DNA of 23,086 nucleotides. It comes from a virus. Position numbers and translations under genes: made by a program. Positions 5,635-23,086 of this stretch are shown one piece after another (the stretch's first letter is position 1; each line of letters starts with the position of its first letter). The DNA is taken from the IMG/VR virus record IMGVR_UViG_3300046454_000041, positions 1 through 23,086 of that record; one strand, given 5' to 3'. The notes below the pieces were generated by a model, which saw only the letters and a list, made by a program, of their open reading frames with translations, was not told the origin of the DNA and made no database searches.

Positions 5635-6021
5635 TCACCAGATCAGGTCAGGCGAGCTGACGCGCCCTTTGATGGAGGTATCGACGAGAAAGCGGCAGTA
5701 GACGCCATTGATGCCGGTGGCCCAGCCGTCGGAGGGGCGAAAGATGACCCAGTCCTCTACATTGACGTCTTCGAAATTCCAGCCGCCGGTGCTGACAAAA
5801 GCCTGCGCCCCTTTCTTGATCACGAGGCCGACTTTGGATTGGTATTGATCTTCATCTCGCGTCTGGCCGGGCAGGAAGATGCCGGACTTGGTCTTTTCAG
5901 GACGCTGGTAGACCGCAACCAGCACGTGGTTGGTGAACAGCTCGATGCCCGAAATGTCGCCCAATTCTTTCAGGAGCTTCAAACGAGGCTCCAATTCATG
6001 CTCCATCTGGGCATAAGCCAT
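5635..6021 (-). CDS. Phage GroES-like co-chaperonin
   Basis: A 128-residue protein. Residues about 26-118 match the Cpn10 fold pattern: a first strand (GIELFTNHVLVAVYQRPEKT), then KSGIFLPGQTRDEDQY, which corresponds to the mobile loop of GroES, then SKVGLVIKKGAQAF and VEDWVIFRPSDGWAT. The family replaces or supplements host GroES on GroEL. Phage versions such as T4 gp31 serve capsid folding. Its place immediately upstream of the scaffold and capsid genes supports that role here. GAGG lies before the ATG, which shares its A with the previous stop (TGATG). The final 10-15 residues (SIKGRVSSPDLIW) are an extension beyond the core fold. Confidence 0.75.
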   Translation of the reverse strand: MAYAQMEHELEPRLKLLKELGDISGIELFTNHVLVAVYQRPEKTKSGIFLPGQTRDEDQYQSKVGLVIKKGAQAFVSTGGWNFEDVNVEDWVIFRPSDGWATGINGVYCRFLVDTSIKGRVSSPDLIW

Positions 6022-6346: not shown

Positions 6347-7057
6347 TTACGCCGTCGGCGTCGGCTTCGCGCCCCAGTCCTTGTCGATTTCGAACACCCA
6401 CGCAAAGCCGGTCTTGCCTACGCCCTCGCTGCCGTCGCTGCACTTTTTGGGTGCCGCCTGCGGATAGACTTCGACCGGAACCCAGTGGCCGCCGACAACC
6501 GGCGCTTCACTCTTGGGCGCGGCGACCGGAAGGTCGTCTGAACCCTGCAGCCAGCCAACCGCCTTGGTTTCGCCATCGACCACGATGCAGATCCTGCCGG
6601 GCCGGTGCGGGGGCTCAGTCGGAAGCGTCTCGTCGATCGGCAGCTGGATGACCTGCACCACCGGCACGCGCGGCGTGGGGATCGGATGGCCGGGAGGTGC
6701 CGGAAGGATCGGACCCTGCGAAGGGTAGACCGGAAGGCCGGGCAGGCTGTTGTCGGGATGGCCGTAGCCGGGCAAGCCCTGATCGGGATGGCCGTAACCG
6801 GGGAGGCCATGCGAAGGATGAGGCGGCCTGCCGGGCAGGTCATGATCGGGATGGCCGTAACCGGGCAAGCCCTGATCGGGATGCGGATGTGTGGGGCGAT
6901 CAAAGCCCGGATCCACCGGCGGCGCGCCAGCGCCAAAGCCCGGATCAACCGGACGCCAGCCGGGCTGGCCGAAACCGGGGTCAACTGGACTCCAGCCGGG
7001 ACCGACTACGTCGCCAATATCAGCCACTCCGCGAATTACAACATGACGCAAAACCAT
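6347..7057 (-). CDS. Pro/Gly-rich repeat protein with C-terminal domain
   Basis: About 236 residues in three parts. The N-terminus has three PVDPGF units (about residues 25-52). The middle (about 58-115) is a degenerate 8-10 residue repeat built on HPDQGLPGYG. The last 100 residues form a compact domain (GRICIVVDGETKAVGWLQGS, then HWVPVEVYPQ and FAWVFEIDKDWG). From memory, proteins with GLPG-type repeats occur in the same genomic place in rhizobial and marine phages and are uncharacterised. The repeats may form an extended linker or a capsid-surface element. Tandem ATGs lie at 7060 and 7057. The GGGAG Shine-Dalgarno sequence is seven bases from the second and four from the first, so 7057 is preferred. 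A strong terminator follows. Confidence 0.65.
   Translation of the reverse strand: MVLRHVVIRGVADIGDVVGPGWSPVDPGFGQPGWRPVDPGFGAGAPPVDPGFDRPTHPHPDQGLPGYGHPDHDLPGRPPHPSHGLPGYGHPDQGLPGYGHPDNSLPGLPVYPSQGPILPAPPGHPIPTPRVPVVQVIQLPIDETLPTEPPHRPGRICIVVDGETKAVGWLQGSDDLPVAAPKSEAPVVGGHWVPVEVYPQAAPKKCSDGSEGVGKTGFAWVFEIDKDWGAKPTPTA
6706..6883 (-). repeat. In-gene repeats encoding HPDQGLPGYG units
   Basis: About six to seven degenerate copies of a roughly 24-30 bp unit that reads GATCGGGATGGCCGTA plus ACCGGG on the plus strand. Copies around 6770-6800 and 6845-6875 are nearly identical at the DNA level. Third-position changes between copies show that the peptide is what is conserved. Recent copies could recombine and change repeat number. 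Confidence 0.7.
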
Positions 7058-20011: not shown

Positions 20012-20195
20012 GGCTGTCCTCCGTGGCGTTGACGCTGACTTCCTTGATGACGAAGGCGCGCGCTGGCTCGTCCTTGCCGGTCTCCCAGCCGCGCAGAATC
20101 CAGCAGGCACCGTTCCACTCAAGGCCCAGCGGCATCACGCTGGTCTTCTCGCCGTCTATATCGACCGTGATGCGGGTCTTAATCGGTGTCGTCAT
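19983..20195 (-). CDS. Small beta-rich hypothetical protein, 70 aa
   Basis: A 70-residue protein (MTTPIKTRITVDIDGEKTSV, then LGLEWNGACWILRGWETGKD, then ARAFVIKEVSVNATED). It reads as alternating beta strands with a Trp-rich centre, a compact single-domain design. GGGAG and GAGG lie before the ATG at 20195, and the first codons lie inside the end of terS (17-nt overlap). The role is unknown. Packaging-gene neighbours do not by themselves imply a packaging job. Confidence 0.6.
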   Translation of the reverse strand: MTTPIKTRITVDIDGEKTSVMPLGLEWNGACWILRGWETGKDEPARAFVIKEVSVNATEDSHGRCVEQDP

Positions 20196-20709
20196 CCTCG
20201 TCGCTCCCCTCGACCACGTCAACGATCGAAGCCAGAGCCGCCCGGGCCGCATGCAGCTCCGGCGTGCTCAGATGGCTGACGTCGAGCTGCTGCACCGCCT
20301 TGACGGTGGCGTTGATGTTCTGCTCGAGGATCTTGCGCTCGCCCCAGTCCCGCGGGTTGAGCTTGCCCGCCAGCCACTGCCGGGCGGCGATCATGATCTT
20401 GCGGTCTTCGGGATCGACCGTCAGGTCGTCGGCCACCTCGAGAATCTCCTGCGCCGCCTTTTCGGCCCGCATGTGCATGGCGTCGTAATAGATGACTTTG
20501 AAATCAGGGTGCTCGTTGAGCCAGTAGCGCATCTGGCGGGCGCTCGGGGCCCATGGCTCTTCGATGGCGATGCGGTCGAGGGTGCGGCCCGAGGCCACTT
20601 CGTCACAGATTCGCTCGGCGACGAAGGGCGAATAGACCGCACGCCACGGCAGTTTGTATTCGCAGGGATCCTTGCGCGGCGTGCGGTAAACGAGAGGAGG
20701 TGTGCCCAT
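20179..20709 (-). CDS. terS: Terminase small subunit
   Basis: A 176-residue protein upstream of terL. The N-terminal part (about 25-75) is a helix-turn-helix module: FVAERICDEVASGRTLDRIA, then APSARQMRYWLNEHPDFKV. The central helices (about 76-120) carry YYDAMHMRAEKAAQEILEVA and KIMIAARQWLAGKLNPRDWG, which is the oligomerisation signature of this terS class. The tail is acidic (EGSDEDDDTD). It recognises viral DNA and hands it to TerL. The ATG at 20709 has no Shine-Dalgarno sequence and lies about eight bases after a -10 box, so the message may be leaderless. A copy of the phage operator lies in that promoter, unlike for the other genes between the terminases and the portal. Confidence 0.85.
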   Translation of the reverse strand: MGTPPLVYRTPRKDPCEYKLPWRAVYSPFVAERICDEVASGRTLDRIAIEEPWAPSARQMRYWLNEHPDFKVIYYDAMHMRAEKAAQEILEVADDLTVDPEDRKIMIAARQWLAGKLNPRDWGERKILEQNINATVKAVQQLDVSHLSTPELHAARAALASIVDVVEGSDEDDDTD

Positions 20710-20716
20710 GCGCCCG

Positions 20717-20745
20717 ATTATGGATCAGGCGCATACGCTTCGCAA
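20717..20745 (-). promoter_or_regulatory. Promoter for terS with embedded operator core
   Basis: On the minus strand, TTGCGA (20745-20740), a 17-bp spacer, and CATAAT (20722-20717) form a sigma70-like promoter. The spacer contains the 13-bp core GCGTATGCGCCTG (20738-20726), identical to the core in both promoters at the right end. Transcription would begin at about the A of the terS ATG. Confidence 0.65.
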
Positions 20746-20747
20746 GA

Positions 20748-20936
20748 TCAGCTTGTCTTGGTCACGCCATCGACGGTCGGCTCGTCGTCGCCGCAGGCGA
20801 AGTCGGCCCGGGGGCTGGGGCTGCTCCGGTAGCGGGCCAGCGCCGCCGCTTCAGCCTCATCGGGGTTCCTCGCCTCGACGTCGATGCTGAACCACGTGCT
20901 GACGGTCAGCTCAACGGTGTAGGTGTCAGTCTTCAA
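20748..20936 (-). CDS. Small hypothetical protein, DpnD/PcfM-like pattern
   Basis: About 62 residues. KTDTYTVELTVSTWFSIDVE is a beta hairpin, followed by the helix ARNPDEAEAAALARYRSS and an acidic end (CGDDEPTVDG). The order 'V-x-V-x-A-x-x-x-D-E-A-x-x-x-A-x-x-R-Y' resembles the DpnD/PcfM-like small-protein fold, a tentative match. The chosen TTG at 20936 has GGGAG seven bases upstream and overlaps the previous stop slightly. An ATG at 20966 would add ten residues but has a weak ribosome site. Its stop lies 38 bases before terS, at the -35 box of the terS promoter. Confidence 0.55.
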   Translation of the reverse strand: MKTDTYTVELTVSTWFSIDVEARNPDEAEAAALARYRSSPSPRADFACGDDEPTVDGVTKTS

Positions 20937-21216
20937 GGCGGCGCTCCCATGTGCTGCGCAGGTCATCAACCCGGTTGATGAACGCTGTATAGTTGAACTT
21001 GTGGCGGCACGCCTCGTTGGCGCACAGCTTGTTGGTGCTCATGCCGCCAGACGGGCCGTCGTAAAAGTCGATGCCGCCGCAGTAGGTGCAGACGAAGTTC
21101 TGTCCCCGCTTCAGATAAGTGGTGTACGGATCTTCAGGCGCGCCTTCAGGCGGCGGCGGCGCGTAGGTGATCACCATCGATCTTTTCTTGAACTTGTTGC
21201 GCAGCCAGTCAAACAT
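20926..21216 (-). CDS. Small zinc-ribbon phage protein
   Basis: A 96-residue protein. A basic N-terminus (MFDWLRNKFKKR) precedes a Pro-rich stretch. Then come two metal-binding knuckles, VCTYCGG at about residue 42 and LCANEACRHKFNYT at about 64 (C-x-x-C and C-x4-C), separated by FYDGPSGGMSTNK. From memory, this FY-G-P-x-GGMS-x-N-x-LC pattern is a recurrent small phage family of unknown function in alphaproteobacterial phages. A strong AAGGAG lies before the ATG. A nucleic-acid or protein-binding role is a reasonable inference for the ribbon. Confidence 0.7.
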   Translation of the reverse strand: MFDWLRNKFKKRSMVITYAPPPPEGAPEDPYTTYLKRGQNFVCTYCGGIDFYDGPSGGMSTNKLCANEACRHKFNYTAFINRVDDLRSTWERRLED

Positions 21217-21994
21217 GCTTTTTCTCCTTCTTCAGATTGATAGCGCCGCCGCTCAACGCCATGGCGGCCTTGCGAATCAATGCTACATCCTGCGCCAGCG
21301 TGACATATTCGCCCTTGTCCAAGCGATCGGCCAGCTCGGTCAGCCGCTGGTGAAGCTTTGGCGGAGTTATGCCCGCCGCCTTGTCGTGCAGGCGCTGCGC
21401 CTTGTCGATCCGCTGCTGTATCCCCCGCTCGAGCGCCGCCTCGCAGGCTTCAGGCGGCTCAACCTCAAAGATCGCCCCTGAGCTGGATATGCGCCCGTCG
21501 AGCGTCCAGTCGGCGTGCAGCGTGATCACCGGGCCAGCCTTGCGCCCATCACTGCTGCGCCAGTTGCGCCAGTCGCCATCAGGATCCTCGATAAATTCGC
21601 CGGGCGTGCGGCGGATCCTGACGCCGATCTGCTTGCCCTTGATATTGGTCACGCCCAGCTCGCGCAGCTCGACCGTCTCCGGGCCAGTGTGTTTGAGGGT
21701 GAACCATGGGCCCTGTTGCCGCCGCTCCTCCTTGAGCCGCGCCGCAACATTCTGGGCGTTGGCGACAAGGCGATCGATGCGCGCCTGCCGTGATTCGACC
21801 GCCAAGACGCCGTCGAACGCCCAGCGATGGGTCGGCTCGTCCTCCGTCTCGACGACGATCACCTGCTGGATGTTCGGCACGCGATCGCGCATGCAGGCGA
21901 CCGCGGCGTCGATGTCTTCCCGGCACGCGAACACCAGCTGGCTGGGCAGCAAGTCGTCGCGGCCTTCGATTTTGGTCATGGTTTTATAAGGCAT
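21209..21994 (-). CDS. Hypothetical protein, 261 aa
   Basis: A 261-residue protein I cannot assign. Residues 1-75 look alpha/beta (SQLVFACREDIDAAVACMRD, then NIQQVIVVETEDEP). A charged helix (RLVANAQNVAARLKEERRQQ) leads to a beta-rich middle (GPWFTLKHTGPETVELRELG, VRIRRTPGEFIEDPDGDW, GPVITLHADWTLDGRIS). The C-terminal 90 residues are helices ending in KKEKKHV. It is the largest gene of the early-type leftward cluster. The ATG at 21994 shares its A with the previous stop (TGATG) and has GGGA upstream. Confidence 0.65.
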   Translation of the reverse strand: MPYKTMTKIEGRDDLLPSQLVFACREDIDAAVACMRDRVPNIQQVIVVETEDEPTHRWAFDGVLAVESRQARIDRLVANAQNVAARLKEERRQQGPWFTLKHTGPETVELRELGVTNIKGKQIGVRIRRTPGEFIEDPDGDWRNWRSSDGRKAGPVITLHADWTLDGRISSSGAIFEVEPPEACEAALERGIQQRIDKAQRLHDKAAGITPPKLHQRLTELADRLDKGEYVTLAQDVALIRKAAMALSGGAINLKKEKKHV

Positions 21995-22266
21995 CAGCTG
22001 TCCCATTCGTTGTCGTCGATCCAAGCCGAACTATAGAAGCCGACGCGCTTGGCGCGCTTCAGCACTGTGCGGTGCACGTCGCTGGCCAGACAGCCGCACG
22101 ATCGCGTCTTGCCGTTGCGCAAGCTGCCGCCGCGGACGACGGTCTCCTTGCCGCAGTCGCAGCGGCACAGGTGCTGGGTCGAGCCTCGATCATTGTTCTC
22201 GGCCCGGGTGATGACCACCAGCCGGGCGAACCTCGTCCCGGCGGCGATTGGCTTGCGCGCGCTCAT
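21994..22266 (-). CDS. Small zinc-finger-like DNA-binding candidate
   Basis: A 90-residue protein. GTRFARLVVITRAENN is followed by HLCRCDCGKETVVRGGSLRN and KTRSCGCLASDVHR, so the cysteines run C-x-C-x-C-G then C-G-C-L. This pattern is widespread in small phage proteins and in the N-terminal regions of HNH or AP2-type homing proteins, where it forms a treble-clef-like zinc knuckle. No HNH catalytic part follows here. The C-terminus is basic and then acidic (WIDDNEWDS). The ATG at 22266 has GGAG eight bases upstream and an ATGA overlap. A DNA-binding or accessory role is inferred. Confidence 0.65.
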   Translation of the reverse strand: MSARKPIAAGTRFARLVVITRAENNDRGSTQHLCRCDCGKETVVRGGSLRNGKTRSCGCLASDVHRTVLKRAKRVGFYSSAWIDDNEWDS

Positions 22267-22439
22267 TTGCGTCCGCTCCATGGGGCTTGGCCGGGCTGGA
22301 CCGGCTGATCGACCAGCCGGGTCGCAGTCCATGTGCCGTCGCGGCTGTCGCGGGCGACGACATAGCCCTTCCGCTTGTAGCGTTCGGCCTGCTCCGCCGT
22401 CAGGTAGTTGACCTGCGACGCCAGATATTTGTCGCTCAT
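22263..22439 (-). CDS. Small hypothetical protein, 58 aa
   Basis: A 58-residue protein MSDKYLASQVNYLTAEQAER, then YKRKGYVVARDSRDGTWTAT, then a Pro/Gly tail. The middle is a strand-turn-strand with conserved-looking Trp. A strong GGAGG lies before the ATG at 22439, with ATGA overlaps at both ends, which makes it a firm coding call despite its size. The family is not recognised. The helix 'L-T-A-E-Q-A-E-R-Y-K-R-K-G' suggests a small DNA- or protein-contact helix. Confidence 0.6.
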   Translation of the reverse strand: MSDKYLASQVNYLTAEQAERYKRKGYVVARDSRDGTWTATRLVDQPVQPGQAPWSGRK

Positions 22440-22621
22440 TTGCGCCTCCGTCCGGCGCGCAGCGCGCCCGCCTTGCTGGCGTAGGCGCGAATCTCGCGGC
22501 AGCGGCTCGAGTGGCCCGACGGCAGCTCAGTAGCCACGACCCAGCGCCAGAAGGTCTGCTCGGGCCACTCCTCGACCGTGATGCGGTCGCTGATCTGGGC
22601 GAGGATGATGTGCTCGACCAT
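22436..22621 (-). CDS. Small hypothetical protein, 61 aa
   Basis: A 61-residue protein, MVEHIILAQISDRITVEEWP, then FWRWVVATELPSGHSSRCRE, ending in a basic tail (GALRAGRRRK). The N-terminal half is likely two beta strands, and the end would bind nucleic acid if exposed. The ATG at 22621 shares its A with the previous stop (TGATG). A GTG three bases earlier would give a GTGA overlap. A G-run lies upstream at useful spacing. Function is unknown. Confidence 0.55.
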   Translation of the reverse strand: MVEHIILAQISDRITVEEWPEQTFWRWVVATELPSGHSSRCREIRAYASKAGALRAGRRRK

Positions 22622-22854
22622 CACTGCCCCCAGATGATCCGGTTGGAGCAGACCAGACGCTCGCCGCCAGCCTGTATGACTTGCAGGGCGCGCTCGTTAG
22701 CGTAGCCCTCGTGAAACTCGGCGATGGCCAGCGCGCGGCTCGAGCGCATGCCGTAGTGACAGCCGTAGGAGCAGGGCTTGCCCTGCCGGGCGGCCAGCGC
22801 GCCCGCCTTGCGGTAGGAGCCTTCGGCCTTCAGGGTTTCGGTGGTCTTGTGCAT
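22621..22854 (-). CDS. RMF/CrpP-like small protein, first gene of the leftward operon
   Basis: A 77-residue protein. Residues 10-50 (EGSYRKAGALAARQGKPCSY, then GCHYGMRSSRALAIAEFHEGYAN) follow the spacing of the ribosome-modulation-factor/CrpP-type motif: helix A-x-x-x-G, then G-x-x-C-x-Y, then an R-x-x-x-x-x-x-W/F-x-x-G helix. The resemblance is weak and by eye. If right, it might bind the ribosome or another host complex early in infection. AGGAG lies eight bases before the ATG. It is the first gene after the leftward promoter, with a leader of about 24 nt, so it would be the most strongly and earliest expressed gene under operator control. Confidence 0.6.
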   Translation of the reverse strand: MHKTTETLKAEGSYRKAGALAARQGKPCSYGCHYGMRSSRALAIAEFHEGYANERALQVIQAGGERLVCSNRIIWGQ

Positions 22855-22884
22855 CTGCGTTCTCCTTCGCTTCAACCTGTCCCA

Positions 22885-22913
22885 ATCCTATGACATGCGT
22901 ATGCGCCTGTCAA
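22885..22913 (-). promoter_or_regulatory. Leftward promoter of the operon
   Basis: On the minus strand, a perfect TTGACA -35 (22913-22908), exactly 17 bp, then TAGGAT -10 (22890-22885). The start is predicted near 22878, about 24 nt before the first ATG. The 20-bp dyad at 22892-22911 fills the spacer and touches the -35 box, so a bound protein would block RNA polymerase. Confidence 0.8.
22892..22911. promoter_or_regulatory. Operator dyad, copy 1
   Basis: GACATGCGTATGCGCCTGTC is an inverted repeat of form GACA-n-GCG-nnnn-CGC-n-TGTC, the size expected for a dimeric helix-turn-helix repressor. It lies between the -35 and -10 boxes of the leftward promoter. The 13-bp core 22897-22909 recurs at 22965-22977 and, inverted, at 20726-20738. 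Confidence 0.75.
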
Positions 22914-22924
22914 CAGCGAGAAAG

Positions 22925-22933
22925 TTATCCACA
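22925..22933 (+). promoter_or_regulatory. Perfect DnaA box
   Basis: TTATCCACA matches the strict consensus for host DnaA. It lies in the most AT-rich stretch of the window, midway between the two divergent promoters, followed by TCTAATTTTTCACAAAG. AAGTTA occurs three times nearby (22922, 22951 and 22983). Possible roles are a replication start or host-dependent control of the divergent promoters. A single box is suggestive only. Confidence 0.55.
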
Positions 22934-22958
22934 GGCTCTAATTTTTCACAAAGTTAGA

Positions 22959-22987
22959 TTGACAGCGTATGCGCCTGTCGATAAGTT
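22959..22987 (+). promoter_or_regulatory. Rightward promoter
   Basis: A perfect TTGACA -35 (22959-22964), exactly 17 bp, then TAAGTT -10 (22982-22987). The start is predicted near 22994, giving a 24-nt leader before the ATG at 23018. The operator dyad at 22961-22979 overlaps the -35 and fills the spacer, mirroring the leftward promoter. Confidence 0.75.
22961..22979. promoter_or_regulatory. Operator dyad, copy 2
   Basis: GACAGCGTATGCGCCTGTC keeps the GACA/TGTC arms and the GCGTATGCGCCTG core of copy 1, with one base missing in the left arm. Centre-to-centre distance to copy 1 is about 68 bp, roughly six and a half helical turns, so cooperative looping is not excluded. Confidence 0.75.
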
Positions 22988-23017
22988 AGGGACAGTTGAT
23001 TTGAACGGAGCAAGCAA

Positions 23018-23086
23018 ATGACCATCACCACCGAATCCCTTCGCGTCTTCCTCGCCTACGCCAATGACGCCGACAACTGGAGCGGC
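23018..23086 (+). CDS. Rightward small phage protein, truncated by window edge
   Basis: The first 23 codons of the only plus-strand gene: MTITTESLRVFLAYANDADN, then WSG. CGGAG lies seven bases before the ATG, about 24 nt after the predicted transcription start. The segment F-L-x-Y-A-x-D-A-x-N-W-S-G is one I associate with small conserved phage proteins that continue into a winged-helix-like G-N-L-T-x-L-K motif. The part here is too short to confirm this. As the first gene of the divergent rightward transcript it is a candidate for early regulation or DNA metabolism. Confidence 0.7.
   Translation, partial: MTITTESLRVFLAYANDADNWSG

Follow-up and report, generated by a model that had tools for sequence, protein, structure and literature searches.

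A putative dyad operator embedded in promoter spacers throughout an uncultivated tailed-phage genome

The element in the window and across the phage genome

The window considered here, i.e., the whole stretch of DNA that was analyzed, is the complete 23,086-bp IMG/VR record IMGVR_UViG_3300046454_000041, in which a 13-bp sequence, GCGTATGCGCCTG, occurs at 22897-22909 and 22965-22977 on the plus strand and at 20738-20726 on the minus strand. An earlier examination of the letters alone (the sequence-only reading) had reported these three copies and no others in the window, and an exact search agrees. The window matches positions 25239-48324 of G001, a 67,094-bp IMG/VR phage contig, with zero mismatches; the same three places account for all exact copies in the whole contig, the two ends of which are bridged by contig 3300046454_000472 across approximately 20 bp, with overlap at each. 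Its relatives include G003 (94% for terS, encoding the terminase small subunit), G004 (82% for terL), and sister phages such as MW202675 (58-59% for terL).

Each copy lies within the 17-bp spacer of a sigma70-like promoter, with boxes as the sequence-only reading had described, and the two at the right end belong to the 19-20 bp inverted repeats that it had noted. The predicted leftward promoter (22885-22913, minus strand) consists of TTGACA at 22913-22908, a 17-bp spacer, and TAGGAT at 22890-22885, and contains the strong putative 20-bp operator GACATGCGTATGCGCCTGTC at 22892-22911; promoter and operator are both kept in G003 and G004. The predicted rightward promoter (22959-22987, plus strand), with TTGACA at 22959-22964 and TAAGTT at 22982-22987 again separated by 17 bp, contains a putative 19-bp operator, GACAGCGTATGCGCCTGTC, at 22961-22979, which reads GACAGCGTATTCGCCTGTC in G004. 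The third copy (20726-20738, minus strand) is a weak putative operator core without GACA or TGTC arms; it falls in a promoter-like sequence before terS (20717-20745, minus strand) composed of TTGCGA at 20745-20740, a 17-bp spacer, and CATAAT at 20722-20717.

The first gene of the leftward operon (22621-22854, minus strand; G001 47859-48092) encodes a 77-amino-acid protein of unassigned function, and the unit runs on through small genes to terS (20179-20709, minus strand; 176 amino acids; PHROG 1482, E 4e-22) and structural genes. The first rightward gene starts at 23018 and is cut by the window end (23018-23086, plus strand); in G001 (48256-48498) it encodes 80 amino acids, and the rightward unit comprises three genes only, two of them for small proteins and the third for a larger, conserved protein, before a terminator-like hairpin. 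The suggestion that the pair serves both early operons finds no support in a rightward unit of three genes and a leftward unit leading to terS and structural genes.

The 13-mer is part of a fuller signal, GACA-nn-CGNATNCG-nn-TGTC, laid over TTGACA/TA-box promoters at approximately 10 places in G001, so that the genome scan proposed in the sequence-only reading extends its three promoter-embedded sites to about ten. These are at 6-25, 629-648, 6888-6907, 45962 (terS), 48130 (left), 48199 (right), 48838, 58939, 64004, and 65628; a further, half-like site lies at 65600. The sites at 629 and 6888 belong to two early plus-strand units, those at 58939, 64004, and 65628 to promoters of the leftward replication-gene block, and that at 6-25 precedes a gene for a candidate small regulator. 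The usual layout is TTGACA, 17 bp containing the element, and a TA-type -10 box (poor at 64004 and 65628); the first arm forms part of the -35 box and the remainder fills the spacer, with one operator per promoter. A strict scan of G001 for TTGAC(A/T)-n16-18-TAnnnT found eight promoters, seven of which carry the element. Counted beyond the three copies in the window, degenerate copies lie at some seven to eight G001 promoters. One operator-like copy, at 50085-50104, is not in a promoter, lying directly behind the terminator-like hairpin that ends the rightward unit.

Three copies of GCGTATGCGCCTG are more than chance would give, as shuffled windows average 0.1 such 13-mers, but the window holds eight other three-copy 13-mers, and the positions are therefore stronger evidence than the count. 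A cross-validated matrix, built from sites in G004, G011, and G012 and from none in G001, was applied to G001. All 12 best matches were intergenic, although intergenic DNA makes up 7.4% of the genome, and five outscored every one of 40 shuffled genomes; the leftward operator scored highest (26.5 bits, against a maximum of 16.6 in the 40 shuffles). Two of the 12 (43296 and 48508) are probably false, resembling a Shine-Dalgarno sequence plus ATG. Random copies in coding DNA, which the sequence-only reading had named as a point to check, are thus not scattered through the genes. Apart from the window's close relatives, loci related by terminase or by the 80-amino-acid gene, 2.72 Mb in total, contained no match with at most one mismatch. 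The same operator therefore recurs at many promoters of one phage genome and is depleted from coding DNA, as in a dispersed-operator regulon.

Two side observations concern these promoters. A perfect DnaA-box consensus, TTATCCACA, lies between the divergent promoters (22925-22933, plus strand) and is identical in G003 and G004; G001 holds a second copy (48802; the first is at 48163) upstream of another operator promoter, and in both cases the DnaA box starts 34 bp from the start of the -35 box, as if the promoter had been duplicated as a module. A start region, GGACAGTT(C/G)AA, follows several operator promoters and is common to G001, G003, G004, and G012 (e.g., window 22988-22997).

Conservation, the terS site, and the palindrome of sister phages

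Conservation of the core in related phages, another check proposed by the sequence-only reading, was found at orthologous promoters in G003, G004, G011, and G012. G003 keeps all three window sites; its rightward operator is the mirror form GACAACCGAATACGCTGTC, and this flip with the dyad retained is expected for a symmetric dimer. In G004 the element stands at seven orthologous promoters with some bases changed, and is missing at terS. G011 and G012 carry it at further promoters, and G016 and G017 before the small-protein gene and at other promoters, while the single motif match in each of G013 and G014 could be chance. The exact promoter-plus-operator pattern occurs in only nine stretches of IMG/VR, and the phage species to which the window belongs accounts for five.

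The pattern in G003, G004, and G012 makes the divergent pair solid and the terS site doubtful. With the relatives' matrix the terS site scores 7.7 bits (rank 21), a chance level at which about 16 such sites are expected per genome. G004 retains a promoter-like TTGCAG/TATTCT at terS with the element replaced, and the more distant G012 has no such site or promoter there, a Shine-Dalgarno-like sequence preceding terS instead. The coordination of early transcription with packaging, which the sequence-only reading had drawn from this copy, is therefore unproven. That the right-end pair are real operators and the terS copy a chance or relic match without function, which is compatible with an operator role for the element and concerns the third site only, falls a little short of an even chance in our estimation: the score and the replacement in G004 argue for it, but the core agrees with the strong sites at 13 of 13 bases and occupies the same spacer slot, and G003 keeps the block from TTGCGA to CATAAT unchanged (the core included) though the gene upstream differs. 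The predicted terS transcription start is at or approximately one base before the ATG. In G001, G003, and G004 alike, 7 bp separate the end of the -10-like box from the ATG (window 20707-20722) and a Shine-Dalgarno sequence is lacking; translation of terS may thus start on a leaderless mRNA.

The sister phages lack the CGNATNCG-type operator and carry CATCGTACGATG in the same promoter spacers, adjoining the -10 box. This 12-bp palindrome stands between the -35 and -10 boxes of many MW202675-like promoters, sometimes with long flanking inverted arms (e.g., L029 1600 and 2524; L043 7433 and 8238; L242-L259), and an exact IMG/VR scan for its promoter form returned 18 stretches, all 18 with genes of the MW202675 kind. 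Covariation of the extended arms, in strict register, was not significant (p 0.066). The promoter-operator design thus seems common to the sister clades, with a different operator word in each.

The group consists of uncultivated tailed phages, and a distant DNA search of phage records gave no match. Their hosts are probably alphaproteobacteria, since G001 encodes a GcrA-like protein and terminase relatives occur in Rhizobium, Methylobacterium, and Bradyrhizobium; G001 also encodes an MT-A70 methylase. GANTC is found only twice in the 61-kb MW202675 genome (L028, L029), where ~202 occurrences would be expected, and G001 and G004 have half as many as expected. A Cpn10/GroES-like co-chaperonin gene lies amid the head genes (window 5635-6021, minus strand; Pfam PF00166, E 1.5e-7).

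Candidate regulators and rival explanations

Taken together, we consider it probable that the element, placed over most host-sigma70-type promoters of the genome, serves as operator for a dimeric regulator encoded by the phage, with a repressor the likeliest kind. Besides a protein of approximately 70 amino acids, the candidates in G001 are a YdaS-like protein of the helix-turn-helix type, a GcrA-like one, and several of no clear family. The likeliest is the ~70-amino-acid, ribbon-helix-helix-like protein, whose gene (G001 62-271, outside the window) lies directly behind the operator at 6-25. It has an extended segment, an invariant PMVV(M/L)TVR stretch followed by predicted helices at 34-46 and 53-68, and an SVSH turn, and it aligned by hhalign with a set of known ribbon-helix-helix proteins over 39 columns in the right register (P 0.0009), at a probability of only 22%. 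Similarity to Arc alone was nil and to the mixed set marginal. Wherever a lineage has several sites and its contig extends over that region, the protein is present; a search by protein only, in which the motif was not used, found two new lineages (G016 and G017), both of which carry the operator, and six operator-less relatives of 38-91 kb (G007-G010, G015, and MW202675) lack it. Its own promoter bears an operator without the TGTC arm in every lineage, which suggests weaker autoregulation. The sequence-only reading had placed one dimeric regulator outside the window, which fits these data. A lambda-like repressor or Cro is not indicated, as a profile scan of the genes at the divergent promoters shows no recognizable regulator and no integrase turned up in the genes scanned; the best candidate is ribbon-helix-helix-like, and not of the helix-turn-helix type that the sequence-only reading had proposed to look for in the rightward operon.

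The 80-amino-acid product of the first rightward gene was considered as a possible winged-helix regulator and rejected; it is unlikely to be the cognate regulator, because homologs 53-79% identical occur in 23 operator-less contigs outside the window's lineage. This protein (L022 4257-4499, from window 23018) is 99% identical between G001 and G004, where most proteins are 40-80% identical, and approximately 78% identical in operator-less phage contigs.

Several observations weigh against assigning the element to a dimeric regulator, or that role to the ~70-amino-acid protein. The TGTC arm is present at only about half of the G001 sites, and CGNATACG faces the -10 box in most promoters, a preferred core direction that would also fit an RNA-polymerase spacer element. 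The ~70-amino-acid protein gave no match to the RHH_1 model, has no Pfam or PHROG family match, and, in Foldseek searches with two models, had no PDB match, so its ribbon-helix-helix fold is unproven. The protein is missing from G012-G014, contigs that are short or have a single site, and shared ancestry confounds its co-occurrence with the operator. Another conserved candidate for DNA binding, the YdaS-like protein (G001 54651-54944), is found in G001 and G004.

The operator could thus be read by this YdaS-like protein or another phage protein. It is kept between G001 and G004 at 40% identity and has weak YdaS/HTH matches, and Cro-like helix-turn-helix dimers commonly bind dyads of approximately 20 bp. 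However, its gene has no operator directly before it, and we regard such an assignment as unlikely; the contig parts of G011, G016, and G017 that were compared stop short of the gene, which limits the co-occurrence comparison to G001 and G004.

If the element acted not as an operator but on RNA polymerase or a sigma factor, as a spacer element making promoters stronger or more specialized, this would account for the fixed position in the 17-bp spacer, the directional bias of CGNATACG, and the recurrent downstream start region GGACAGTT(C/G)AA. Such a role appears improbable given a dyad with a TGTC arm that sigma factors are not known to contact, a copy in the rightward promoter that is reversed and shifted by one base, another in the terS promoter that is reversed, and the unrelated palindrome nearer the -10 box in the sister phages. 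Binding by a host transcription factor, through which the phage would read a host signal, is more improbable still: host factors may act at the perfect DnaA box between the divergent promoters, and the phage encodes a GcrA-like protein, but the exact promoter-plus-operator pattern is confined to the nine IMG/VR stretches, no site with at most one mismatch occurs in the bacterial loci examined (flanks of terminase relatives only), and the sister phages use another palindrome.

Mode of action and relation to known systems

With the element as operator of a phage-encoded regulator, its geometry suggests that a bound dimer would exclude RNA polymerase. A spacer of 17 bp is optimal for promoters, and exclusion fits better than activation because the operator takes in part of the -35 box and fills a spacer that is already optimal. 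One regulator would then set the timing of most early units. Sites with full arms (left, right, 629, and 6888) would be stronger than the arm-less sites at terS and at the regulator's own promoter, the latter allowing autoregulation. Genome-wide early shut-off would be the likeliest use, because PHROG and Pfam searches, which covered some of the genes, showed a family A polymerase, a primase-polymerase, and a helicase but no integrase.

Genome-dispersed repressor sites are already known from L5-like phages and SPbeta; the arrangement here stands apart from them by a dyad over the promoter itself and a likely small regulator. In the L5/TipsytheTRex mycobacteriophages, one repressor has more than 20 genome-wide sites in promoters and short intergenic gaps, with an orientation that follows transcription; each site is an asymmetric 13-mer to which a monomer binds, and many of the sites affect elongation (PMC9283540). 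G001 resembles L5 in its many dispersed sites, here predicted operators, but they are dyad-symmetric and nearly all within promoter spacers, unlike L5-type stoperators, the exception being the site behind the terminator-like hairpin (50085). In SPbeta, the repeated element SPBRE is bound by the master repressor MrpR, which has a tyrosine-recombinase fold and maintains lysogeny (PMC10516654). A conserved element is likewise repeated through the genome here, whereas the candidate reader is a small ribbon-helix-helix-like protein and the genes scanned yielded no integrase. The Streptomyces phage phiC31, a lysogeny system, has inverted repeats of approximately 17 bp dispersed near promoters and terminators; the dispersal is similar, and its repressor is unrelated as far as known. 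Arc and Mnt of P22 are small phage ribbon-helix-helix proteins that bind promoter dyads, but at immunity-I promoters and not genome-wide. A lambda-like CI/Cro immunity region combines an adjacent repressor gene with multipartite operators, an arrangement not seen in G001. Literature searches on dispersed inverted repeats in phages, phiC31, and ribbon-helix-helix phage regulators found little.

These findings give an uncultivated phage group a concrete, testable regulatory circuit, in which the operator word and the target promoters are listed and a regulator is proposed. How a phage-wide regulator and its many sites evolve together could be studied through the operator change that separates the sister clades, which amounts to a natural experiment. 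More tentatively, and as a picture that is rather doubtful in its entirety, this may be a phage clade with no recognized integrase that governs nearly all of its host-type promoters through a single operator set in the spacer, its reader being a tiny ribbon-helix-helix protein that regulates its own gene, the sister clades having swapped the operator word (GACAnnCGNATNCGnnTGTC vs. CATCGTACGATG) and presumably its reader. If true, the exchange of operator and reader would recall the divergence of immunity specificities among temperate phages, though here in the service of lytic timing.

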